A DNA stretch of 64,000 nt from Chloroflexota bacterium (GTDB lineage: Bacteria; Chloroflexota; Limnocylindria; P2-11E), in NCBI GenBank assembly GCA_016194865.1, contig JACQAT010000007.1:124001-188000 (forward strand), read 5' to 3'. The position numbers were made by a program, and so were the translations under genes. Shown piece after piece: positions 10,035 to 31,106 of the stretch. The notes under the pieces were generated by a model. It was not told the origin of the DNA. It searched no databases and was given only the letters and a program-made list of their open reading frames with translations. The number at the start of each line of letters is the position of its first letter. The first letter of the stretch is position 1.

Positions 10035-11414
10035 ATGTTCACCCTCGGTCGGCTGCTCGAGGCGAGCGGTGGACGTGTCGTCCACGGCCGTCCGGAGCCC
10101 GAGCTGCGCTTCAGCGAAGGTGCCTTCGACTCGCGCATCGCCGCGCCGGGCTCGCTGTTCTTCGCGCTGCGCGACCAGCGCGACGGTCACGACTTCGTCG
10201 CCGACGCGTTCGCGCACGGTGTGCGCGGCGCGGTCGTCGAGCGACTTCCCGCGGGGCTCCCCGACGACGCGCTGTGCGTCGAGGTGTCCGACGCGCGTCA
10301 CGCGCTGCGGCGTCTGGCGGAGTCGATCCGCGACGCGCAGCCGATCCCGGCGGTCGGCATCACCGGCAATGCCGGCAAGACGACCGCGAAGCAGGCCAGC
10401 GCGGCGACGCTGGGGATGCGCTACCGCGTGCTGTCGCCGCGCGCTTCGTACAACAACGAGATCGGCGTCCAGCTGACGTTCCTCGCGCAGGAGCCGAGCC
10501 ACGAGGTCGCGGTCCTCGAGCTCGGCTTCTACGTGCTGGGTGAGATCGCGGATCTCTGCCGGCTCGTGCGGCCACGGATCGGCATCGTCACCATGGTGCC
10601 GGAGCGGCCGACGCATTTCGCGCGCACCCCGAGCGTCGACGCGATCGCGCGCGGCAAGGCCGAGCTCGTCGAGTCGCTCCCGGCCGACGGCGTCGCGCTG
10701 CTCAACGCCGACGACCGCCGCGTCCGTGCGATGAGCTCGCTGACGCGCGCGCGCGTGGTGCTCTACGGCGAGGCCGCGGACGCGCAGCTGCGGGCGACCG
10801 ACGTCACCGAGCTCGGGCTCGACGGCACGCGCTTCGTCGCGCGCTACGAGGGAGCGAGCGCTCAAGCGACGATCCCGCTTCCCGGGCGCCACCTCGTCAC
10901 CGCCGCCCTCGGCGCGCTCGGCGCGGCGATGATGCTCGGCGTGCCGCTCGAGGAGGCCGCGGTCGGTCTCGGGATGCTCGAGCCGCCCGCGCACCGCATG
11001 GCCGTCCGCCGAGCGGCGCGCTGGACCGTCATCGACGATTCGTACAACGCCAGCCCGGCCGCGGTGCACGCGGCCCTGCACGTCCTGCGGGGGAGCGGCG
11101 GTCGCCGCGTCGCGGTGCTCGGCGACATGCGCGAGCTCGGCACGCTCTCCTCCGACGCGCACGAGGAGGTCGGACGCGACGCGGCGGATAGCGCAGACGT
11201 CGTCATCGGGGTGGGCGAGCTCGCCGCCACGATCGTCTCGAGCGCGAAGGCAGTGGGACACCGCGACGCGCACAGCGTCGCCGACAGCGCCGAGGCCCTT
11301 GTCCTGCTGCGACGTATTTTGAGGCCGGGCGATGTCGTGCTGGTGAACGGCGCGCGCGCGCTCGAGCTGGACAAGCTCGCCGACGCGCTGGCTCCCGCCG
11401 GGGCGGCGGCCTGA
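10035..11414 (+). CDS. murF: UDP-MurNAc-tripeptide--D-Ala-D-Ala ligase
   Basis: A 459-residue Mur ligase that adds the D-Ala-D-Ala dipeptide to the UDP-MurNAc tripeptide, using ATP. It has the N-terminal UDP-binding domain (about 1-100), the ATPase centre with GITGNAGKTTAKQ, and a C-terminal domain with AHRMAVRR...VIDDSYNASPAAV, the MurF-type signature. Its stop overlaps the mraY start (TGATG). A second, membrane-fused MurF-like gene lies at 21624, so this one is presumably the housekeeping enzyme. Confidence 0.93.
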   Translation: MFTLGRLLEASGGRVVHGRPEPELRFSEGAFDSRIAAPGSLFFALRDQRDGHDFVADAFAHGVRGAVVERLPAGLPDDALCVEVSDARHALRRLAESIRDAQPIPAVGITGNAGKTTAKQASAATLGMRYRVLSPRASYNNEIGVQLTFLAQEPSHEVAVLELGFYVLGEIADLCRLVRPRIGIVTMVPERPTHFARTPSVDAIARGKAELVESLPADGVALLNADDRRVRAMSSLTRARVVLYGEAADAQLRATDVTELGLDGTRFVARYEGASAQATIPLPGRHLVTAALGALGAAMMLGVPLEEAAVGLGMLEPPAHRMAVRRAARWTVIDDSYNASPAAVHAALHVLRGSGGRRVAVLGDMRELGTLSSDAHEEVGRDAADSADVVIGVGELAATIVSSAKAVGHRDAHSVADSAEALVLLRRILRPGDVVLVNGARALELDKLADALAPAGAAA

Positions 11415-12400: not shown

Positions 12401-13149
12401 GCCCCGCTTCGGACGCGGCGACTCAGGTAACCCGCGCGGCGTGGCCGGAGCGCGACGGCGCGCTGCGCTCGCCGCTCCTCGAGGGACACGGTCTCGTCGC
12501 CGGCTTCACCACACGTGCGCTCGGCGCGATGGCGGGCACGCTCGCCGTCGCCGAGGAGCAGCGTCGCAATCGCGGCGCGCTCACCCGCCTGCTCGGCTTC
12601 GAGGACGTCGTCCGGGTGCGGCAGGTCCACGGCGCCGCCGTCGTGCACGCGGACGCGCCATTCGACGTGTGGCCGGAGGCCGACGGCATCTGGACCGAGC
12701 GCCCGGGCCTGCTCCTCGGTGTCGGGGGCGCCGATTGCGTGCCGGTCCTCGTCGCCGACCCGCAGAGCCTCATCGGCGCGGCCCACGCCGGATGGCAGGG
12801 GACGACCCTGCGCGTCACGGAGGCGCTGGTCGACGCGATGGTGCAGGCGGGCGCCAGCCAACAAAGAATGGTCGCCGCGCTCGGGCCCTCGATCGGTCCG
12901 TGCTGCTACACGATCGACGAGGAGCGCGCCGCGCTCGTTCGCGAGCGGCTCGGACCGGCCGCGATCGAGGGCAACGCCTTTGACCTGTGGCGCGCGAACG
13001 CGGCGCAGCTCGCCGGTCGCGGCGTGCGCGCGATCGAGGTCTCCGGCATCTGCACGCGCTGCGGCGGCGCCGACCTGTGGTCGTATCGCGCGCGCCACGA
13101 GCGCGGGCCGCAGGGCACGGCGCTCGGCTTCATCGGCCGCCCCGCATGA
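12397..13149 (+). CDS. pgeF: Peptidoglycan editing factor / YfiH-type purine nucleoside phosphorylase
   Basis: A 250-residue YfiH/LACC1-family protein. The metal site is visible as QVHGA, GGADCVPVLVAD and AAHAGWQGT (His-Cys-His), with the CCYTIDEE and CTRCGGADLWSYR segments later. Family members have purine nucleoside phosphorylase/deaminase activity. In E. coli PgeF (YfiH) prevents mis-incorporation of L-Ser for L-Ala in the stem peptide by MurC, which suits a place among mur genes. Start GTG 12397 overlaps mraY; its stop overlaps murD (ATGA). Confidence 0.9.
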   Translation: MSPASDAATQVTRAAWPERDGALRSPLLEGHGLVAGFTTRALGAMAGTLAVAEEQRRNRGALTRLLGFEDVVRVRQVHGAAVVHADAPFDVWPEADGIWTERPGLLLGVGGADCVPVLVADPQSLIGAAHAGWQGTTLRVTEALVDAMVQAGASQQRMVAALGPSIGPCCYTIDEERAALVRERLGPAAIEGNAFDLWRANAAQLAGRGVRAIEVSGICTRCGGADLWSYRARHERGPQGTALGFIGRPA

Positions 13150-16823: not shown

Positions 16824-18148
16824 GATATCACGTCGTGGGCATCGGTGGGGCGGGGATGTCAGCCGTCGCGCGGCTGCTGCTCGCGCATGGCCAGGTGAGC
16901 GGATCGGATGCGGGCCACTGGCCGCTCGGCGACGCGCTTCTGCCTCTCGGCGTCACGGTGCATGACGCCTTCGCGGCCCGCCACGTGGCCGGCGCCGACG
17001 TCGTCGTGCGGTCGAGCGCGTACGGCGTGACGAACGTCGAGGTCGCGGAGGCCGAGCGGCGCGGGATCCCGGTGTGGAAGCGCCACGACGCCTGGAAGCT
17101 GCTCGCCGGAGGGAAGCGCGTCGTCGCCGTCAGCGGGACGCATGGCAAGACGACGACCACGGCCATGGTCTGGAGCGCGCTCCGTGCCGGCGGCGTCGAC
17201 GCCTCGCTCATCTGCGGCGCGCGGCTGCGTGACCTCGGCAGCAACGCGCACCTGGGTCGCGACGCCACCCTGGTCATCGAGGCGGACGAGTACGACAACG
17301 CCTTCCTCGCGCTCGACCCGGAGGTCGCCGTGGTCCTCAACGTCGAGCACGATCACGTCGATCTGTTCCCGACGGAGACCGCGTATCGCGAGGCGTTCCG
17401 CGCCTTCGCGCGCCGCGTCAAGCCCGGCGGCGCGCTGGTCGTGTGCGCCGACGACCCCGGTGCGCGCGGGCTCGCGGCAGTGGACGCGGTCACCTACGGG
17501 ACGAGCGCGGATGCCGGCTATCGCGTCGTACCAGCGGCCGATGGGCACGCGCTGCGCCTGCCCGACGGCGCGACCGTCCCGCTGCGGCCGCGTGTCCCTG
17601 GCCTGCACAACGTGCTCAACGGCGCCGCCGCGATCGCCGCCGCGGCGCTGCTCGGTGTCGCGCCGCGGTCCGCGAGCGAGGGCGTCGCTTCCTTCGGCGG
17701 CACCGAGCGGCGGCTCGAGGAGCTCGGCCGCGAGGATGACGTCCTCGTCGTCGACGACTACGCGCACCACCCGAGCGAGCTGCGTGCGTCCATCGAGGCC
17801 CTCCGGCCGCGTGGGTCGCGGATCGTCGCGGTGTTCCAGCCGCACACGCCGAGCCGGCTCGCCGCCTTCAGCGCGGGCTTCAGCGCGGTCCTTCGGGACG
17901 CCGATGCCGCGGTGGTCGCGGAGACCTTCAGCTCGGCTCGCGAGGGCGCGCTCGAGGGCGGCGCCCGCGCGCTCGCGGACGCGTCGGGCGCGCGCTACGC
18001 GCGTGATCCCGACGACGCGGCGCGGATCGCGGCGGATCTCGCGCGCCCCGGGGACGTCGTCCTCATCGCCGGAGCCGGCGACATCCGCGCGGCGGGCGTG
18101 GCGCTGCTCGCGCTGCTCCGGGCGCGTGCGGCGACGACCGTCTCGTGA
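16820..18148 (+). CDS. murC: UDP-MurNAc--L-alanine ligase
   Basis: A 442-residue Mur ligase that adds the first stem residue, L-Ala. The N-terminal nucleotide-binding turn VGIGGAGMSAVA is followed by ATPase motif SGTHGKTTTTAM, EADEYDNAF, LNVEHDHVDLF, the FGGTERRLEELG segment and VDDYAHHPSELRA, all typical of MurC. The start is GTG 16820 inside the murG stop overlap. It ends in a GTGA overlap with murB. Confidence 0.94.
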   Translation: MRYHVVGIGGAGMSAVARLLLAHGQVSGSDAGHWPLGDALLPLGVTVHDAFAARHVAGADVVVRSSAYGVTNVEVAEAERRGIPVWKRHDAWKLLAGGKRVVAVSGTHGKTTTTAMVWSALRAGGVDASLICGARLRDLGSNAHLGRDATLVIEADEYDNAFLALDPEVAVVLNVEHDHVDLFPTETAYREAFRAFARRVKPGGALVVCADDPGARGLAAVDAVTYGTSADAGYRVVPAADGHALRLPDGATVPLRPRVPGLHNVLNGAAAIAAAALLGVAPRSASEGVASFGGTERRLEELGREDDVLVVDDYAHHPSELRASIEALRPRGSRIVAVFQPHTPSRLAAFSAGFSAVLRDADAAVVAETFSSAREGALEGGARALADASGARYARDPDDAARIAADLARPGDVVLIAGAGDIRAAGVALLALLRARAATTVS

Positions 18149-19014
18149 GCGTCGCTCTCGGCGCTCGCGGCGAGCCGATGCGCGACCACACCTCGCTGCG
18201 CATCGGCGGCCCGGCCGACTACTTCATCCGGGCCGCGAGCGAGGAGGACCTGCTGGGAGCGATCCACGTCGCACGCGTGAACGAGCTGCCGGTCTTCGTC
18301 CTCGGCGGCGGCACCAATCTGCTGGTCGCCGATCGCGGCATCCGCGGCGTCGTCCTCGAGAACGCCTCCCACGACGCTTCGGTCGACGGCGCGATCGTGA
18401 CGGCGTCGTCGGGGACGCCGCTCGCGAGCGTCGCCGCGGCCGCGGCACGCGCCGGGGTCGAGGGGCTGGAATGGATGGCGACGGTCCCCGGCACCGTCGG
18501 TGGCGCGGTGCATGGCAACGCCGGCGCCTTCGGCGGCGAGACCGCGGACGTGCTCGTCGACGCGACGCTCGTGGATCTGAACGGCGATCAATGGGTCTCG
18601 CGCGCGGACGAGCTCGGCTTCGCGTACCGCACGAGCTCGCTCCAGGGCACGCCGATCGTGTGCCTGAGCGCGCGTTTCCGCGGCCAGCGCGGCGATCGCG
18701 CGCGCGCCGTGCGACGCATCAAGGAGATGGCCAACGAGCGCATCCAGAAGCAGCCCCTCGCGCAGCCGAATACGGGCTCGATCTTCCGCAACCCGCCGGG
18801 CGATCATGCGGGCAGGCTCATCGAGGCCGCGGGGCTGAAGGGCCACACCGTGGGCGGCGCGCAGGTGAGCCAGAGACACGCCAACTTCATCGTGAACGTC
18901 GGCGGCGCCTCCGCGCAGGATGTCTGGGAGCTGATGCAGCTCTGCATGGCGACGGTCCAGGAGCGGTTCGGCGTGCAGCTCGTTCCCGAGGTCGAGCGGG
19001 TGGGTGAGTGGTGA
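18145..19014 (+). CDS. murB: UDP-N-acetylenolpyruvoylglucosamine reductase
   Basis: A 289-residue flavoenzyme that reduces UDP-GlcNAc-enolpyruvate to UDP-MurNAc. FAD-binding motifs include HTSLRIGGPADYF, VLGGGTNLLVAD and MATVPGTVGGAVHGNAG. The catalytic region includes YRTSSLQG, QPNTGSIFRNPPGDHAGRLIEAAGLKG in pieces and QVSQRHANFIVN. It lacks the extra loop of type I enzymes. It is the last typical high-GC gene before the lower-GC block inserted ahead of ftsQ. Confidence 0.93.
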   Translation: MSVALGARGEPMRDHTSLRIGGPADYFIRAASEEDLLGAIHVARVNELPVFVLGGGTNLLVADRGIRGVVLENASHDASVDGAIVTASSGTPLASVAAAAARAGVEGLEWMATVPGTVGGAVHGNAGAFGGETADVLVDATLVDLNGDQWVSRADELGFAYRTSSLQGTPIVCLSARFRGQRGDRARAVRRIKEMANERIQKQPLAQPNTGSIFRNPPGDHAGRLIEAAGLKGHTVGGAQVSQRHANFIVNVGGASAQDVWELMQLCMATVQERFGVQLVPEVERVGEW

Positions 19015-19120
19015 CTGACGTCGACAAACGCAGACAGCGGCTTGGCGTTTGCTGGTTCCTCTCGCAGGCGAATGCGTTTGCCTATCGCCGCTCGGCGCAG
19101 GCGGAAAGGTGCTCGATACT

Positions 19121-20155
19121 GTGACCAGGATTTGGATTCTTGCGACCCGGGCCGCGGCTCATGTGGGCCGGTCGAAGGCCAGGGTCGGTTGGATCATTGT
19201 GCTCGCGACGTTCGGAGTCGATCGCCTCTTCGTCAATCGCGACGTTCACGAGGTTGCCTTCGTCCTCATTTCTGTCGTGCTGGCTTATATCTTCCTTCCC
19301 GATGTTGGTCCAGACATCGAGCGAGCCGTTGGGCTATCGTCACTGTGGCTTCGCGACGCCACCCAGCTTCGCACGACCGTTGACAGCGCACGTTTGAGGC
19401 TGGCAACGGTGGAGCTCTTGCGCTCGTTTCTGTCTCCAGCGAATGCAAATGCCGCCTGGGTCTTTGGGTGCCTGCCATTCTTGACCCTCGAAGAGCAGCC
19501 CGAGAGGGTTCTTAGCGATTTCAGATACGAGATTCACGTGGATCCGGCAGATGACGCGAGAACCTACACAGCGACTACATCACTATCGGCGAGGCGAATC
19601 TTGCCGACACCTTCGCTCTGGGTGGGTCTCGCTCGAACAACCGATGCCCTGGTCGATGAGTACATCACTTCCGGCTGTATCTTGCGTGAGCTCGTACCGG
19701 TCGAACAGTCCCTTTGGGACGAACTCGCCTTTTCTGGCAAGTTCGCCGCGACGCTGACAGTGGAGCGGCAGAGATACGTCGGGAGGCTCGATCGACAGAG
19801 CAACGATCTGATCCGCCTACTGTTTGACGAGGTACCAGTCTCGGTCGAGCCGCGAGAAACCACTCTGCTTTGCAAGTTTGTCATTCCGCGCGCCACCAGA
19901 ATGTTTCCGGTGAAGCTGGCCAGTTACTTTTGTCATGGGAGAACAGAGATATCGTTCACGATTGCGGAACCTGTTCGAACGCTAGGTGTCTTCGTTTCGA
20001 TGGCAGGGCTGCAACCACAAGATGAACGCGGTGAGAGCGCAGACATACGCGCCAGGTCCGCGTCGATCAAGGTTCGCTCCAAAGCGGACGCCCTGTTGTG
20101 GCCCGGATCAGGCGTCGTGTTCGTTTGGACGCTGCCCAATGGGGAATCGGCTTGA
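19121..20155 (+). CDS. Unknown membrane-anchored protein heading the van-like block
   Basis: A hypothetical protein of 344 residues from the GTG at 19121 (GGAAAGG lies 11 bases upstream); the frame is open from 19049. Two hydrophobic segments (VGWIIVLATFGV and VAFVLISVVLAYIFL) near the N terminus are followed by about 270 soluble residues rich in Arg and Glu with beta-like patterning. I recognise no family. Base composition is visibly lower in G+C than the mur genes upstream. Its stop overlaps the dipeptidase start (TTGA), so it is part of the inserted operon; a sensing or scaffolding role would only be a guess. Confidence 0.65.
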   Translation: MTRIWILATRAAAHVGRSKARVGWIIVLATFGVDRLFVNRDVHEVAFVLISVVLAYIFLPDVGPDIERAVGLSSLWLRDATQLRTTVDSARLRLATVELLRSFLSPANANAAWVFGCLPFLTLEEQPERVLSDFRYEIHVDPADDARTYTATTSLSARRILPTPSLWVGLARTTDALVDEYITSGCILRELVPVEQSLWDELAFSGKFAATLTVERQRYVGRLDRQSNDLIRLLFDEVPVSVEPRETTLLCKFVIPRATRMFPVKLASYFCHGRTEISFTIAEPVRTLGVFVSMAGLQPQDERGESADIRARSASIKVRSKADALLWPGSGVVFVWTLPNGESA

Positions 20156-20832
20156 CCCCTCTTGTCGATCCGCGCCGGTGCGGGGTCCCGCAGGTTCGCG
20201 GTCAAAGCCCCATCTCGATGCCGGCGCACCCGAGTGTCGCAATCACGATCGCCGAGTCCGATGAGCCTCTTGTGCCATTGCCGCGTGAGGTCATAGAACT
20301 CGCGTACTACGCGAACGAACGTTGGCCAGGCGCCAGCAAGTCGCTTCGCGCACGCGAGTCGGTCAGTTCACGACTTGCTGCTGCAGCAGTGCGATTGCCC
20401 GCAGATTTCGGCATCGTCGTCTTGGATGCTTGGCGTAGCACGCAATTTCAGCGGGCCCTCTACGAGCACTACTACCGTGACAGCAGTTTGGCTCCAGGCT
20501 TTGTGAGCGACCCGGAACATCAGCTTTGGATCCCGCCTCACGAAACAGGCGGCGCGTTGGACGTTTCATTGACCTGGAAGGGCCAGCCGTTGTCGCTCGG
20601 CACCGAATTCGACAGCTTCACGCACAAGGCCCGCCTTGACGCGTATGAAGGCAGCCGGGACGCAGAACCCTTTCGCTCGTTGCGCAGATTGCTCGTAGCG
20701 GCCCTGACGGCCGTCGACTTCTGCCCATATCCGGAGGAGTGGTGGCACTTCTCATACGGTGATCAGCACTGGGCCTACAACAAGGGACTCCCCGCGGCGC
20801 CCTACGGTCGCGTAGGCCCCGACGGTGACTGA
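20152..20832 (+). CDS. VanX-type D-alanyl-D-alanine dipeptidase (M15 family)
   Basis: A 226-residue zinc peptidase of the VanX/DdpX group, which hydrolyses free D-Ala-D-Ala. Zinc ligands and catalytic residues match the VanX pattern: H130 and D137 in PPHETGGALDVSL (seven apart, as in VanX H116/D123), then E196-W-W-H199 (VanX E181/H184), with R95 in DAWRSTQFQ matching the VanX arginine. There is no signal peptide, so it acts in the cytoplasm. Start TTG 20152 overlaps the upstream stop and the gene runs eight bases into the hydrolase gene. It sits with a second MurF and a Ddl ligase, as in glycopeptide-resistance clusters, but no vanH is present. Confidence 0.85.
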   Translation: MTPLVDPRRCGVPQVRGQSPISMPAHPSVAITIAESDEPLVPLPREVIELAYYANERWPGASKSLRARESVSSRLAAAAVRLPADFGIVVLDAWRSTQFQRALYEHYYRDSSLAPGFVSDPEHQLWIPPHETGGALDVSLTWKGQPLSLGTEFDSFTHKARLDAYEGSRDAEPFRSLRRLLVAALTAVDFCPYPEEWWHFSYGDQHWAYNKGLPAAPYGRVGPDGD

Positions 20833-21634
20833 TGTATGGCCGCATGAGACCGGTGACTTCAGCCTTGGCTCCGCGACCATTAACGGAGCCGTCGTTCGTT
20901 TCGCGGTGGCTGGGATGGGGCCACCTGTCCTTCTTCTCCATGGCTGGGGGGGTGAGATCAAGTCCTGGGGCATCCTGCCCGGAGCGTTGCTTGATCGAGG
21001 TTTTCGCGTCCTCGTACTGGATCTACCCGGCTTCGGCGCGAGCAGCCTGCCCGCGGCATGGAGCATCAACGATTACGCGAGATGCGTCCGAGAGCTTGCG
21101 GCTCAAGTCGGGATCGAACGATGCGACATCGTTGCTCACTCTTTCGGCGGTCGTGTCGCGCTCGTCCTTGGGGCGACCGATCCCGCCTTCATCATTCGCC
21201 TGGCATTGATGGCCCCCGCCGGCATTCGCCTGAAGTCGTTCCGATTGACGGTTTGGTCGAAGGTGATCTACCCGGTCTTACGTACTTTCCGTCGCGGCGC
21301 ACAGTCAATCGGATTGCGAAGCGGGGAGTCCATCGGCGATGCCTTCTATCGTCGGGTTGGAGCCGTCGATTATGCAAATGCGCAGGGCACGCTTCGTTCG
21401 ACGTTCGTCAAGGTCGTGCGCGAGGATTTGCGTACGTACGCAAGACAGGTCAAGGCGCCGACACTCTTGATTTGGGGTGAGCTCGACCGCGAAACACCGC
21501 TCTTGCAAGGGAAGATTCTCAGCCAACTCATCCCGGATTGCGGATTAGTGGTAATTCCGGGCGCTGGACACTTCGCATACTTGGAACGCAGCGACTATTG
21601 CCTAACCGTGATCGCTCATTTCCTTGGCCGTTAG
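20825..21634 (+). CDS. Alpha/beta hydrolase in the van-like block
   Basis: A 269-residue alpha/beta-hydrolase fold protein. The oxyanion region is LLHGWGG, the nucleophile elbow AHSFGGRVAL, the acid is in WGELDRETP and the histidine in GAGHFAYLE. The substrate is not evident; carboxylesterase, thioesterase or amidase are possible. There is no signal peptide. Translation is coupled to both neighbours (8-base overlap upstream, 11-base overlap downstream), so it probably acts on an intermediate of the same pathway, for example an ester or D-amino-acid derivative of the stem terminus. Confidence 0.85.
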   Translation: MTDVWPHETGDFSLGSATINGAVVRFAVAGMGPPVLLLHGWGGEIKSWGILPGALLDRGFRVLVLDLPGFGASSLPAAWSINDYARCVRELAAQVGIERCDIVAHSFGGRVALVLGATDPAFIIRLALMAPAGIRLKSFRLTVWSKVIYPVLRTFRRGAQSIGLRSGESIGDAFYRRVGAVDYANAQGTLRSTFVKVVREDLRTYARQVKAPTLLIWGELDRETPLLQGKILSQLIPDCGLVVIPGAGHFAYLERSDYCLTVIAHFLGR

Positions 21635-23264
21635 CGCGTTAGCGCACGCAGTGATCGAGTCCGTGCTGGCCGTTGGGTTCTGCCTGTCGCTGGCCTCAAG
21701 ACTTCATCGCCTCCTGCTTTTCTTCCAGCAGGAGGAGTACCAGAGGATTCGTTTCCTGCGATGGTGTGTGCGGAATCTCGGTCGCTCTATTGGCGTCGTC
21801 GTCCCTGCGATCCTCATCGTCTCCGCCTTGGCCGTGGTCGCCGATGTTTCCGGCGCTAGCAACCTTGTCGTCGCGTTAGGAAGCATTGGTGTGATTTGTG
21901 CCAGTGAATTGCGCTCGAGGGGGCACGCAGCGAAGAAGCCCTTGACGTGGACCAAGCGAGCGCGCTTGATGTGGCTTGCCGCTGTGCTTCTTGGTACGAC
22001 ACTTGGAGCCGCTAGCGTCGTACGGTGGGACGGCGCGACGGTGAACGTCGCGGATACGGGCGCGTTTCAAATCATGCTACTGGCCGCGGTCATCCTGACA
22101 GCGCCGATCATTCTTGTGTGCGGCGACCTGATGATATTCCCGATCGTGCGGCGCTGGCACCTCGCGGTGATTAGAGATGCTCACGAGCAACTCGGCATCG
22201 CCCGACCACGGATCGTCGGTGTGACCGGTAGCTATGGCAAGACCAGCACCAAGGAAATCACGGCGCAGCTTCTTGGAATCCGCTATCGAACCGCAAAGAC
22301 GCCGGGCAGCTACAACACGCTACTCGGTCTCGCCTCCGCAATTCGAGACGGCCTGATCAGGGATAAGCCAGCTTTCTTGGTGGCGGAATACGGCGCGTAC
22401 CGAAGAGGCGAGATTGACAGAATGACTCGCCTCGCACGCCCTGACATCGCCATCATCACCGCGATTGGCCCGCAACACTTAGAGCGGTTTGGTTCGCTGG
22501 AGGCGATTACCGAGGCAAAGTTCGAACTTCTCCGGGCAGTACCGCCAGAGGGCCTCGTGGTGATCAACGCCGATGACGAGCGGTGCTACGCGTTACGCAC
22601 GCGGGTTCCCTCGCCGTCGGTAACATTCTCGTGGCGTGTTCCGCGTGCTGACTCGTTCGTCTGGGCCACTGACGTAGAAATGAGCGCTGCTGGCCTGAAT
22701 TTTGTGATTCGTTTGCATGACGGGCGCTCCGCCCATTCCCAGACACGACTCCTGGGTTCCCACAATGTGTCGAACATCTTGGCGGGCTCCGCGGTCGCAC
22801 TTAATTGTGGCATTACGTTGGAGGAGATTGTCACTGCCATCGCGGCCTTACGCCCCGTGACTCACCGGCTGGAACTGAAGCAGGGGAGTGGAGGCGTGAC
22901 GATCATCGACGACTCCTACAACTCCAATCCCGCCGGCGCCGCAAATGCCCTGGACACACTTGCCGAGTTTTCGGGCGGCAGAAGGTTCCTGGTGACACCC
23001 GGCCTTGTCGAGCTTGGGCGAGAAGGACCCACCGAAAATCAGCGACTCGGCCGGCTTGCTGCGGCGCGTGTTGACGAAGCGATACTGGTTGGTGGGGCGT
23101 CGACGCGGGCGTTGGTCCGCGGTTTGCGCGAAGGCGGCTTTGACGACGATCGCCTTTCCGTAGTGCCCAATCTGGCCGCTGCGACCGAGCTATTGCGTTC
23201 AAAGGTCCGACGAGGCGATACGGTCTTGCTGATGAACGATCTGCCGGACCTCTACGAAACGTGA
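21624..23264 (+). CDS. Membrane-fused MurF-like ligase
   Basis: A 546-residue Mur ligase with an N-terminal membrane domain. Hydrophobic segments lie at about 14-32, 56-76, 82-94, 115-133 and 149-170. The ligase follows: VGVTGSYGKTSTKE (199-210), LVAEYGAYRRGEIDR, TAIGPQHLERFGS, INADDER, the MurF-type VTHRLELKQ...IIDDSYNSNPAGA, and a C-terminal domain. It should attach a D-amino-acid dipeptide to the UDP-MurNAc tripeptide or to a membrane-bound precursor. It is a paralogue of the murF at 10035 and lacks MurF's own N-terminal UDP-binding domain, which the membrane part seems to replace. Start TTG 21624 overlaps the hydrolase gene. Confidence 0.85.
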   Translation: MAVSALAHAVIESVLAVGFCLSLASRLHRLLLFFQQEEYQRIRFLRWCVRNLGRSIGVVVPAILIVSALAVVADVSGASNLVVALGSIGVICASELRSRGHAAKKPLTWTKRARLMWLAAVLLGTTLGAASVVRWDGATVNVADTGAFQIMLLAAVILTAPIILVCGDLMIFPIVRRWHLAVIRDAHEQLGIARPRIVGVTGSYGKTSTKEITAQLLGIRYRTAKTPGSYNTLLGLASAIRDGLIRDKPAFLVAEYGAYRRGEIDRMTRLARPDIAIITAIGPQHLERFGSLEAITEAKFELLRAVPPEGLVVINADDERCYALRTRVPSPSVTFSWRVPRADSFVWATDVEMSAAGLNFVIRLHDGRSAHSQTRLLGSHNVSNILAGSAVALNCGITLEEIVTAIAALRPVTHRLELKQGSGGVTIIDDSYNSNPAGAANALDTLAEFSGGRRFLVTPGLVELGREGPTENQRLGRLAAARVDEAILVGGASTRALVRGLREGGFDDDRLSVVPNLAAATELLRSKVRRGDTVLLMNDLPDLYET

Positions 23265-23289
23265 TGCAGGCACGTGGGAGGCTGCACTG

Positions 23290-24477
23290 GTGACACTGAA
23301 CGTCGCCGTCATCTACGGCAGTCGGTCCGTCGAACACGACGTATCCGTGATAACCGCTCTCCAGGTCATGGGTTGGCTTGATCGGAGCAAATACCAGGTG
23401 CTGCCTGTCTTCATTACACGCACCGGTGCATGGGTCTCGGATCCGAACCTCTTTACGGGGGACATCCGGCGGGATATCGAGAGGCATAGGGAGTTGGACG
23501 CGAACCCCAAGGGCCACCTCGTCACCCTTCCGGCCGAACCAGGTACAGGCGGTTTCCTGAGCTCCCGGCGAGGACCATTTGGAGGTCGGCGCCTCCTCCC
23601 GTGTGACGTGGTGATCCCCGCTCTTCACGGTACTCATGGTGAGGACGGAAGCATTCAAGGGTTGTTGGAACTCGCGGACATGCCCTATGTCGGTTCGCGA
23701 CTAGTGAGTTCGGCCATCGCGATCGACAAGATCGTCACGAAGCGCGTGTTGGTGGCCGGCAATTTCGACGTCGCACCCTGGGTGGCGACCGACCGATCCA
23801 CGTGGGCCGCGGGCCGTGCTGGCTTCCTCAAGGACATCTCTTCCGAACTGACGTTTCCCCTGTTCGTAAAGCCAGCCTGCCTTGGGTCGAGCATCGGCAT
23901 TACCAGGGTCGATGCGGTCGTTGGTCTATCGGATGCGATCGATCTGGCGCTGAGGTTCGGCGACAGGGTCTTGGTCGAAGCGGCGGTGGTCGGCGCGATC
24001 GATATCAACTGCTCCGTCCGTCGCAGCAAGACCGTGGAAGCGTCGGTCTGCGAGCAGCCGATTGGCGCTGCCGCCTTCCTGAATTTCGCAGATAAGTATC
24101 TTGGTTCGCCTGCGAAAGGAATGAAGGGCGCGCGGTCGCTCATTCCAGCGGGCATTAGCGAGGAGCTAGCTGCAAAGGTGCGTTCGCTGGCCATCAGCGT
24201 GTTCAAGGCGTTCGACTGCCGCGGCTTGGCGCGGATCGACTTTCTGGTCAGAGCCGAGACGGGGGAAGTCTTCGTGAATGAGGTCAACACACTTCCGGGT
24301 TCCTATGCGCTCTACCTGTGGCAGGCGACTGGCGTATCACCAGCTGCCGTTCTCGATGACCTCATTCAGGATGGGCTGGCGGCCGCCGAGGCTAAGCGCA
24401 CCACGACGTTTGGCTTCGAGAGTGGGATTCTCGACGGGCGCGGCGGAAGCAAGGTTGGTAGCCAGCCGCAGAAGTGA
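23290..24477 (+). CDS. D-Ala--D-Ala (or D-Ala--D-X) ligase
   Basis: A 395-residue ATP-grasp ligase of the Ddl/VanA family. E15 (SVEHDVSVITA) matches the first-D-Ala-binding glutamate of DdlB. PLFVKPACLGSSIGI is the ATP-grasp segment. The omega-loop reads NFADKYLG, keeping the KY pair typical of D-Ala-D-Ala ligases rather than the VanA loop. The C-terminal motif NEVNTLPGSYALYLW differs from the usual NTLPGM/F-T, so second-substrate specificity is open. It occupies the normal ddl position before ftsQ but has the composition of the inserted block, and 25 bases separate it from the MurF-like gene. It is longer than typical Ddl (about 310-360). Confidence 0.87.
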   Translation: MTLNVAVIYGSRSVEHDVSVITALQVMGWLDRSKYQVLPVFITRTGAWVSDPNLFTGDIRRDIERHRELDANPKGHLVTLPAEPGTGGFLSSRRGPFGGRRLLPCDVVIPALHGTHGEDGSIQGLLELADMPYVGSRLVSSAIAIDKIVTKRVLVAGNFDVAPWVATDRSTWAAGRAGFLKDISSELTFPLFVKPACLGSSIGITRVDAVVGLSDAIDLALRFGDRVLVEAAVVGAIDINCSVRRSKTVEASVCEQPIGAAAFLNFADKYLGSPAKGMKGARSLIPAGISEELAAKVRSLAISVFKAFDCRGLARIDFLVRAETGEVFVNEVNTLPGSYALYLWQATGVSPAAVLDDLIQDGLAAAEAKRTTTFGFESGILDGRGGSKVGSQPQK

Positions 24478-24484
24478 GCCCGGC

Positions 24485-24601
24485 ATGACCGCGAACAGCC
24501 TGGTGCGGAAGGCCGCACGCGTCGCGGGCATCTCGTTCGCGGACCTGGTGGACAGGCTCGTGCGCTGGGCGCTCGAGGACGCCGACCGTCGGTCCCGCTA
24601 A
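24485..24601 (+). CDS. Possible 38-residue protein or ftsQ 5' fragment
   Basis: A small frame (ATG 24485 to TAA 24601) with high-GC codon use like the dcw genes rather than the block just upstream. It is helical and basic (SLVRKAARVAGISFADLVDRL lies inside it). It marks the return to native composition. It might be a separate small protein or, after a frameshift, the cytoplasmic tail of FtsQ, whose frame is open alongside it without a canonical start. No family recognised. Confidence 0.25.
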   Translation: MTANSLVRKAARVAGISFADLVDRLVRWALEDADRRSR

Positions 24602-24707
24602 GGGTCCGCGCGCGCGTCGCACCACGCGCTCGCGCGGACGCGCCGACCCCGAGCTGCGCGGACGCGTCCTCGCGGGACTTCTCGCGCTCGGCTGCGGCGC
24701 GGGCCTC

Positions 24708-25346
24708 GTGACGCTCGCCGTCGTGCCGCTCTGGCCCGTGAGCGAGGTCAGCACGGAGGGGACGCGGCAGCTCGGCTCGCAGAACGCGATCCTGGTGAGC
24801 GGGCTCGTCGGCACGCCGACCTTCCGAGCGAGCGGTCAGGATGCGCGGGGGCGCCTTCGCGCCCTCCCCGCCGTCCGCGACGCGACCGTGGAGCTGTCGC
24901 TGCCCGGTGGCGCGCGGATCCTCGTCAGCGAGCGCGAGCCGGTCGCGCGCTGGTCCGTGTCGAGCGGCGAGCTGCTCGTCGATAGGGAGGGCGTGCTGTT
25001 CGCGTCGATCGACGCGGCAGGCGGGCCGGCGACGCGCATCATCGACGACCGCGGCACGGCGAAGCAGGGAGACCGTGTCGATCCAGCGCTGGTGAGCGTC
25101 GCATCACGCTTGGCCGCTCTGCCCGCGCGCGACCTCCGTCCAGATGAGATCGCGCCGACGGTGCATATCGCGAAGGACGGGACCCTCATCCTGAACAGCG
25201 GCGCCGGGTGGGAGGTGCGCTTCGGCGGCCCCGAGGCGTTCGACGAGAAGATGAGCGCGATGCGCGCGTTCTTCCGCGAGCACCCGAGCGGGTCGCTAGA
25301 GTACGTGGACGTGGCACGGCCAGGGTCCATCGTGTCCAAGCCCTAG
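24708..25346 (+). CDS. ftsQ: Cell division protein FtsQ
   Basis: A bitopic division protein bridging early and late divisome parts. A POTRA-like domain starts at VSEVSTEGTRQL and is followed by an FtsQ-type beta domain (VELSLPGGARILVSEREPVARW, LLVDREGVLFAS in pieces). The first canonical start (GTG 24708) would cut into the membrane span: the frame continues upstream with DPELRGRVLAGLLALG at about 24645-24692, a basic stretch plus the rest of the span, but holds no ATG, GTG or TTG. The CTG at 24654 or an upstream frameshift could explain this. Position between ddl and sbp/ftsA supports the call. Confidence 0.82.
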   Translation: MTLAVVPLWPVSEVSTEGTRQLGSQNAILVSGLVGTPTFRASGQDARGRLRALPAVRDATVELSLPGGARILVSEREPVARWSVSSGELLVDREGVLFASIDAAGGPATRIIDDRGTAKQGDRVDPALVSVASRLAALPARDLRPDEIAPTVHIAKDGTLILNSGAGWEVRFGGPEAFDEKMSAMRAFFREHPSGSLEYVDVARPGSIVSKP

Positions 25347-29510: not shown

Positions 29511-31106
29511 ATGGTCCTCTCCGATCGCGACATCCGCGCCGCCATCGCCAAGGGACGGATCGTCATCGAGCCGTTCGACGATGCGTGCGTGCAGCCCGCG
29601 AGCCTCGACATCCGCCTCGACGACCAGTTCCGCGTGTTCCGCTCGAGCCGCCACGCCTATATCGATCTCGCGGAGCCGCTCGATGACATCACCGAGCTTG
29701 TGTCCGTCGCCGGCTCGCGCTTCATCCTCCACCCGGGAGAGTTCGTGCTCGGCTCCACGCGCGAGCGCATCCGGCTTCCCGATGATCTGGTCTCGCGCGT
29801 GGAGGGGAAAGCTCTGGCGCTCGATACCTGGATGCCGACGCCGGCCGGCTGGAAGCAGGTGGGCGAGATCTCGCCTGGAGATCTCGTCTTCGACGACGCC
29901 GGACAGCCGACACGCGTCAGAGCCGTTTCTCCGGTCATGGCGGGTCGCCCATGCCGTGAGGTCGTCTTCTCCGACGGCACGAAGCTGGTGACCGACATCG
30001 ATCACCAGTGGGTAACGACCGATAAGAGAGGCCGCTGGGGGCGCGAGCGCCGAGCGGCGGTCGTCACCACCGAAGAGATCGCGCGGACGCTTCGTCTTGG
30101 ACGGGAACGCAACCATCAGGTGGCGCTCGCAGGCCCCGTGTGGTACCCGCAGCGTGATCTGGTGATCGATCCGTACGTGTTAGGTGTTTGGCTGGGTGAC
30201 GGCACATCGACCACCGTGGAGGTGACCTGTGCTGAGGCCGGCATCCTCGAGGAGCTCGCCGCGGCCGGTTACCCCGCCGTTCGCAAGCCTTCGCGCGCGA
30301 TCACGTACCGCGTCGGCGGCGCAGGCCACAGGCGCAGCACGTCCACAGGCCGCTTCGAAGGTAACGGGTCGCTCTCGAGCAAGCTGCGCGCGATGGGACT
30401 GATGGGGAACAAGCACATTCCAGACGACTACCTCCACGCGGCGATCGAGCAGCGCACGGCGCTGCTTCAGGGACTGATGGATACGGACGGATACGTCGAC
30501 TGCCTTGGACGGTGTGGCGTGACGACGGTGAGCGAACGACTCGCGGAGCAGTACTACGAGCTGGTCGCGAGCCTGGGTTTCCGTCCGAAGCTCGCGCGCA
30601 AGCGTGCGATGTCGAACGGCACGGACCACGGCCCCGCGTTCGAGGTCCAGTTCACGCCGGATCGCCCTGTCTTCAGGCTGCGGCGGAAGCGCGCTCGTCA
30701 GAAGGTGCGTGGCATGTTCCACCGGTTCCGCGCGATCGTCGATGTGAGAGAGGTACAGAGCGTGCCTGTCAAATGCCTCGAGGTCGCGTCGCCGAACCGG
30801 CTATTCCTTGTCACGCGAGCATTCATCCCTACGCATAACAGTTCGCTCGGCCGGCTCGGCCTGCTCATCCACTCGACCGCCGGCTTCATCGATCCCGCGT
30901 GGGACGGCCACATCACGCTCGAGCTCTCGAACGTGAACACGATCCCGATCACGCTGTATCCGGGGATGCGCATCGGCCAGCTGTCGTTCTTCGAGCTGTC
31001 CAGCCCGGCCGAGCGGCCCTACGGCTCACCCGAGCTCGGATCGTCATATCAGGGCCAGTCCGGGCCGACGCCGTCGCGTTACCGGCTGGACCTGCCGAAG
31101 GCGTAG
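29511..31106 (+). CDS. dcd: dCTP deaminase with intein
   Basis: The precursor of 531 residues holds a dCTP deaminase split by an intein. N-extein residues 1-100 (to VEGK) and C-extein residues 444-531 ([21 protein letters not shown] in pieces) join to an enzyme of 188 residues, normal for Dcd. The restored VEGK/SSLGRLG motif is the family's active-site block, and HITLELSN carries the catalytic glutamate. It converts dCTP to dUTP (or dUMP if bifunctional) for thymidylate supply. Insertion at the most conserved active-site motif is typical of inteins. Activity depends on splicing. The start is ATG 29511, directly after the HAD stop. Confidence 0.93.
29811..30839 (+). mobile_element. Class 3 intein with LAGLIDADG endonuclease
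   Basis: A 343-residue intein. It starts with Ala ([14 protein letters not shown]) instead of Cys/Ser and ends THN before Ser+1. The class 3 set is present: W67 after the block B histidine (DIDHQW), C322 in block F ([17 protein letters not shown]) and T341 before the terminal His-Asn. In such inteins the block F Cys starts splicing. Between blocks B and F two LAGLIDADG-type motifs, [10 protein letters not shown] (122-131) and [10 protein letters not shown] (218-227), mark a homing endonuclease with its acidic residues intact, so the element may still be mobile. Confidence 0.88.

Follow-up and report, generated by a model that had tools for sequence, protein, structure and literature searches.

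A putative acquired cassette with a membrane-embedded MurF and a variant Ddl ligase at the ddl position of a Chloroflexota dcw cluster

The MurF of textbooks is a cytosolic ligase that acts on UDP-MurNAc-tripeptide before MraY. A murF gene may also travel with glycopeptide resistance genes: vanHAX with a co-located murF occurs in Actinobacteria and Ktedonobacteria (PMC8698665, PMC9689679). The locus described here resembles such van clusters in that a ligase, a MurF and a VanX-like peptidase lie together, but it lacks vanH, vanT, vanRS and vanY, has a D-Ala-D-Ala-type ligase, a membrane-embedded MurF and an alpha/beta hydrolase (abh), and appears to overwrite the ddl of the dcw cluster. A Mur ligase without the usual N-terminal domain is known from MurT/GatD, the lipid II isoglutaminyl synthase of Staphylococcus aureus; the substrate of MurT is lipid II, for which such an N-domain would serve no purpose and would probably collide with the membrane (PMC6113224). 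The MurF of the cassette shares with MurT the missing N-domain, a membrane-borne precursor being a feature of MurT, but it has no GatD partner, is MurF-like in sequence and carries integral membrane helices. Finally, the cassette Ddl has the chromosomal position and the general ligase family of the canonical (DdlB-type) dcw ddl, but belongs to a different clade (~30-37% identity) and has a short acceptor loop and an extended omega-loop.

The locus lies in a 64,000-nucleotide stretch (the window) of a metagenome-assembled genome (MAG) of a Chloroflexota bacterium (assembly GCA_016194865.1, contig JACQAT010000007.1, positions 124,001 to 188,000). Five co-directional, tightly packed and near-overlapping ORFs occupy 19.05-24.48 kb, between murB and ftsQ (Table 1). 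The block has a G+C content of 60% overall (58-62% gene by gene) and a GC3 of 0.64-0.72, versus 67-75% and 0.88-0.95 in the flanking dcw genes and ~72% and ~0.91 in the dcw cluster overall. It is the lowest of all 5.4-kb segments in the 64 kb (0.602; mean 0.698, sd 0.026), and 1-kb segments below 64% G+C are found only within it. A preliminary description of this DNA had proposed a tightly coupled five-gene module of the D-Ala branch between murB and ftsQ, with a foreign composition (about 58-62% G+C against 75%). The ORF coordinates, all on one strand, and the G+C and GC3 values bear this out, as do Pfam and NCBIfam for its guesses at the gene families, the first gene alone being without a match. 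It overlooked the canonical murF upstream and the 3' end of the native ddl after the block. Our preferred reading, which we hold to be probable though well short of certain, is that an acquired cassette replaced the dcw ddl, and that its core operon makes a dipeptide and joins it at the membrane.

Table 1. Features of the murB-ftsQ interval and related dcw genes (positions in the window)
Feature	Position	Strand	Evidence or remark
Canonical soluble murF, usual dcw position	10035-11414	+	TIGR01143 340 bits, profile 1-418
murB, left native flank	18145-19014	+	68-78% identity to ddl-adjacent murB in same-family genomes
Possible first ~13 codons of native ddl (VTDVDKRRQRLGV)	19011-19049	+	Overlaps murB stop; tentative
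Orphan membrane protein	19049 (or GTG 19121; likely start 19121)-20155	+	Hydrophobic segment near residues 65-90
M15 (VanX/DdpX-like) D,D-dipeptidase-type metallopeptidase	20218 (ATG)-20832; longer ORF from 20098	+	PF01427 54.6 bits
Alpha/beta hydrolase (abh)	20825-21634	+	Abhydrolase_1 94.8 bits (Pfam)
Membrane MurF	21624-23264	+	Mur_ligase_M 134.5 and Mur_ligase_C 61.6 bits
Variant Ddl ligase	23290-24477	+	Dala_Dala_lig_N 105 and _C 153 bits; short acceptor loop, longer omega-loop
Native ddl remnant, last ~40 codons (PGMTANSLVRKAARVAGISFADLVDRLVRWALEDADRRSR)	24480-24602 (123 bases)	+	ddl C-termini of same-family genomes; PF07478
ftsQ, right native flank	24708-25346	+	Same-family comparison

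Judged by gene neighborhoods, abh, membrane MurF and Ddl form a widespread conserved operon. When 84,980 species genomes were scanned with a MurF alignment, more than 580 relatives were obtained, the best 80 of which were kept. In this best-scoring set abh is nearby in 74 of the 80 loci and both abh and ddl in 64, with abh-murF-ddl as the almost constant gene order; at the bottom of the score range, a few members (L146, L148, L149) resemble ordinary dcw murF. The trio occurs in Bacillota, Bacteroidota, Chloroflexota, Acidobacteriota, Pseudomonadota, Actinomycetota and Poribacteria, and a Paceibacterota locus has abh and murF. The nearest Ddls within the phylum are accompanied by abh and membrane MurF genes, and in one family (f9; genomes G044, G153 and G182) the trio itself fills the murB-ftsQ interval. 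The operon of the window has each of the elements that mark the group, namely the S-D-H triad of abh, a membrane MurF without N-domain and a short-loop Ddl. The preliminary description had singled out the hydrolase and the membrane MurF as the novel parts. Neither is peculiar to this genome, since both belong to a widespread operon with Ddl that sometimes holds the only MurF and Ddl of a genome; the module is nevertheless apparently undescribed, no published account of it having been found. Literature searches on membrane MurF, on murF-less lineages and on murF of Blastochloris or Butyrivibrio likewise gave nothing relevant, most subscription papers lying outside their scope. Two loci, in Paceibacterota (L147) and Patescibacteria (L143), have membrane MurF and abh without an adjacent ddl, and the genome of the former (G331) has no Ddl N-domain anywhere. 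A Clostridia MAG (loci L153, genome G330, and L128) carries a canonical murF-ddl pair plus an operon of VanX-like peptidase, abh, membrane MurF and Ddl.

Some genomes have no other MurF-type match than the membrane MurF and no other Ddl than that of the trio. They include those of two cultured bacteria, Butyrivibrio sp. FCS014 and Blastochloris sulfoviridis DSM 729, as well as several from Chloroflexota (G044, with 98% completeness, G235 and G271). On checking, the next-best Mur matches of Butyrivibrio, G235 and G271 turned out to be MurE. The dcw order of Blastochloris is ftsI, a Mur ligase in the murE position, mraY, murD, ftsW, murG and murC, which leaves no room for a murF because the murE-position ligase is followed by mraY after ~255 bases. 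In G044, ftsI and mraY are only ~120 bases apart, with no murF between. Other trio genomes have kept a canonical murF, as has that of the window. Going by gene content, the trio seems to be the only route to finishing the cell-wall peptide in some cultured bacteria.

The membrane MurF shares with MurF the middle (ATPase) and C domains, the MurF motifs and the partnership with Ddl. TIGR01143 is its best NCBIfam model, with 243 bits against a cut-off of 288.6, and covers only profile positions 73-403 of 418. Positions 1-72, the UDP-MurNAc-binding N-domain, are unmatched, and this domain is absent from all members examined. It is replaced by a mostly helical membrane domain of ~190 residues, and the protein is nearly always accompanied by abh. 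By hydropathy, the N-terminal 180 residues contain several membrane segments, whereas the N-terminus of canonical MurF has none. An AlphaFold2 model (49 sequences; pLDDT 90.7, pTM 0.88) has residues 2-193 all helix and the MurF middle and C domains after residue 196. The assignment to MurF is therefore one by the middle and C domains, with their MurF-specific similarity, and falls short of the N-domain and the curated score. MurT was considered as an identity and rejected (NF045635, 22 bits against a cut-off of 800; no GatD gene in the block).

That homologues are the sole MurF of several genomes is indirect evidence that they may add D-Ala-D-Ala to MurNAc-tripeptide. Because the UDP-MurNAc-binding domain is missing and a membrane domain stands in its place, the enzyme probably works at the membrane on lipid-linked tripeptide, a substrate and site of action that we infer by analogy with MurT. 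A membrane anchor alone is no proof of a lipid-linked substrate, as the helices could merely localise an enzyme for UDP-MurNAc-tripeptide. The membrane MurF might accordingly be an ordinary MurF anchored near MraY, and the cassette a neutral xenologous replacement. The catalytic body is indeed closely MurF-like: the best Foldseek match of the model is MurF 4qf5, the ten best are all MurF crystal structures (~375 columns), and the DDSYNSNP motif is retained. Loss of the whole UDP-binding domain in every member examined is hard to square with normal UDP-MurNAc binding, however, and the strict linkage to abh suggests a distinct chemistry, so that we regard an ordinary anchored MurF as rather unlikely.

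In the preferred reading, the variant Ddl would make a D-Ala-D-X dipeptide, most likely D-Ala-D-Ala, and the integral-membrane MurF would join it to MurNAc-tripeptide, probably in a lipid-linked (lipid I/II-like) form, as MurT acts on lipid II. The abh protein would act alongside the membrane MurF as a candidate editing or clean-up hydrolase, and the VanX-like peptidase would be an optional partner that removes free D-Ala-D-Ala. A more far-reaching proposal, which we advance tentatively and rate at somewhat less than an even chance, is that the operon represents a widespread alternative ending of precursor synthesis. The stem would be completed on the lipid carrier by membrane MurF and a serine hydrolase after MraY has moved the tripeptide, in reversal of the usual order, and here the module would have jumped into the dcw cluster and erased the resident ddl. 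If this is true, the existence of cultured bacteria whose sole MurF is a membrane one without N-domain would show that an essential, antibiotic-targeted pathway has no universal order. MurF, MraY and Ddl inhibitors would then be expected to act differently in phototrophs and in Bacillota of the rumen and gut, and the conserved, unstudied hydrolase abh would gain a pathway.

The Ddl of the window passes both D-Ala-D-Ala ligase models (PRK01966.1-4, 308 bits, cut-off 262; TIGR01205, 250.9 bits, cut-off 245.65). It stays far below all NCBIfam Van-ligase models (VanG, 207 bits, cut-off 495; D-ala-D-lac, 186, cut-off 550; D-ala-D-ser, 178, cut-off 520). Residues E15, S150, K215, Y216, R255, D257, E270 and N272 of DdlB are conserved in the aligned trio ligases; the numbering and the choice of specificity-setting positions are those that we take to hold for the family. 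The combination of Glu-Ser-Tyr with Lys-Tyr is typical of D-Ala-D-Ala ligases and is kept in the window Ddl. Both ligase domains, the curated scores and the catalytic residues thus place the protein in the Ddl family, with the exception of the DdlB Ser281-Leu282 loop. The acceptor loop around these two residues is four residues shorter, with Tyr at 281, in the window ligase and 12 aligned trio ligases, and the omega-loop of trio ligases is lengthened by an insertion.

The M15 protein has the active-site residues H, D, E and H, and its HxTGGxxD and EEWWH motifs align to those of VanX (1r44). The NCBIfam VanX model gives it 19 bits against a cut-off of 320, and it is a candidate D-Ala-D-Ala dipeptidase. 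Only four loci (the window, L062, L116 and L128) have a VanX-like gene next to the trio. A known van type was rejected, as the preliminary description had also concluded: the Van-ligase models are far from their cut-offs, the Tyr at DdlB position 216 is kept, the gene content is unlike, and no vanH, vanT, vanRS, racemase or vanY gene was found among the five family-scanned ORFs of the block.

The same description had proposed a swap of the terminal residue of the stem peptide. The ligase would make a D-Ala-D-X other than D-Ala-D-Ala, the VanX-like enzyme would destroy D-Ala-D-Ala, and the membrane MurF would install the changed end, as in a van system without VanH, VanT and VanRS. A cytoplasmic D-Ala-D-Ala dipeptidase beside a ligase that makes D-Ala-D-Ala would be a futile pair, which counts against our preferred reading. 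The swap keeps some plausibility because VanX-like neighbors recur in four loci, one of them (L128) in the gene order of the window and in a genome that has a canonical murF-ddl pair besides, and because the acceptor loop is unusual; the omega-loop insertion and the long branch of the window Ddl point the same way. It is opposed by the invariance of the DdlB Glu15, Ser150, Lys215 and Tyr216 positions, by the D-Ala-D-Ala models that the ligase passes and the Van models that it does not approach, and by the block having no gene that would supply a D-hydroxy acid or D-Ser. Moreover, most trio loci have no VanX-like gene nearby, and several trio Ddls are the only ddl of their genome. A changed terminal residue is thus possible but not favored, and the editing cassette as a whole seems to us improbable.

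The catalytic triad of abh (S106, D221, H249) is invariant in an alignment of 22 operon homologues. Its gene neighborhoods, and the natural fusion of membrane MurF and abh in a single 836-aa ORF (L060:6735-9242), mark it as a dedicated partner enzyme of the membrane MurF. Our best guess is an editing or clean-up hydrolase that acts on ester- or amide-linked stem ends; any role given to abh, to the M15 protein or to the orphan gene is a guess from sequence. The orphan protein matches no family in Pfam, NCBIfam, PADLOC or PHROGs, including defence and phage families, and its predicted fold is uninformative. Its gene, which arrived with the cassette, is absent from 300 genomes of the phylum and from plasmids.

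The arrival of the cassette can be traced in what it left behind. Directly 3' of the block, PGMTANSLVRKAARVAGISFADLVDRLVRWALEDADRRSR is 71-79% identical to the Ddl C-termini of most same-family genomes (E down to 1e-14); PF07478 independently matches this stretch, in which the composition returns to the native level. In these genomes an ordinary ddl occupies the murB-ftsQ interval, and in nearly all relatives it is the single ddl. Because of the adjoining remnant and these relatives, the foreign block can be placed within the remains of the native ddl. At the other junction, a GTG at 19011 opens VTDVDKRRQRLGV, which resembles the ddl starts of relatives (e.g. MTARRIRVGV) at a similar distance from murB; it is too short for certainty but may be a 5' remnant. 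In the Ddl tree the window protein, on a long branch, belongs to a trio clade of 29 Ddls (support 100/99), where its neighbor comes from a genome of another family of the phylum; Ddls from its own family, order and class fall elsewhere. No membrane MurF was found in 40 relatives and no M15 peptidase in 30. These sequence comparisons indicate that the block arrived by horizontal transfer and took the place of the dcw cluster's own ddl, of which it left the 3' end: an essential gene displaced in place by foreign DNA, with the remnant still visible.

The preliminary description had asked for a second ddl, and had reasoned that the product would be constitutive if this were the only one. A profile search of the genome, a MAG that is 66% complete, detected no second full Ddl, although another ddl could be absent from the assembly. 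As the cassette Ddl is the only one detected and the native gene is a remnant, constitutive use of whatever it makes is probable. The canonical murF persists intact alongside the cassette, and therefore either MurF may use the dipeptide.

An assembly chimera, in which DNA from another organism was built into the contig, might be suspected from the MAG source and the abrupt change in composition, but it is very improbable. The block borders directly on the 3' end of the gene that it displaces, the murB and ftsQ on either side are intact and belong to the host family, and the contig is 203 kb long; the contamination estimate for the MAG is 0.07%. No convincing long direct repeats mark an integration mechanism at the two block junctions. 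IMG/VR viral contigs hold no MurF or VanX-like homologues, and plasmids hold only distant MurF, Ddl and M15 genes, with no MurF match covering 80% of the query.

Two other genes in the window are of note. Just downstream of the dcw cluster, a dCTP deaminase gene (29511-31106) has an intein-like insertion with a LAGLIDADG/homing-endonuclease domain (split DCD match, PF14528, PF05204). The mraY and murD genes of the dcw cluster enclose a Cu-oxidase_4 (PgeF/YfiH-type) gene (12403-13149); PgeF/YfiH is a peptidoglycan-editing factor in known species.
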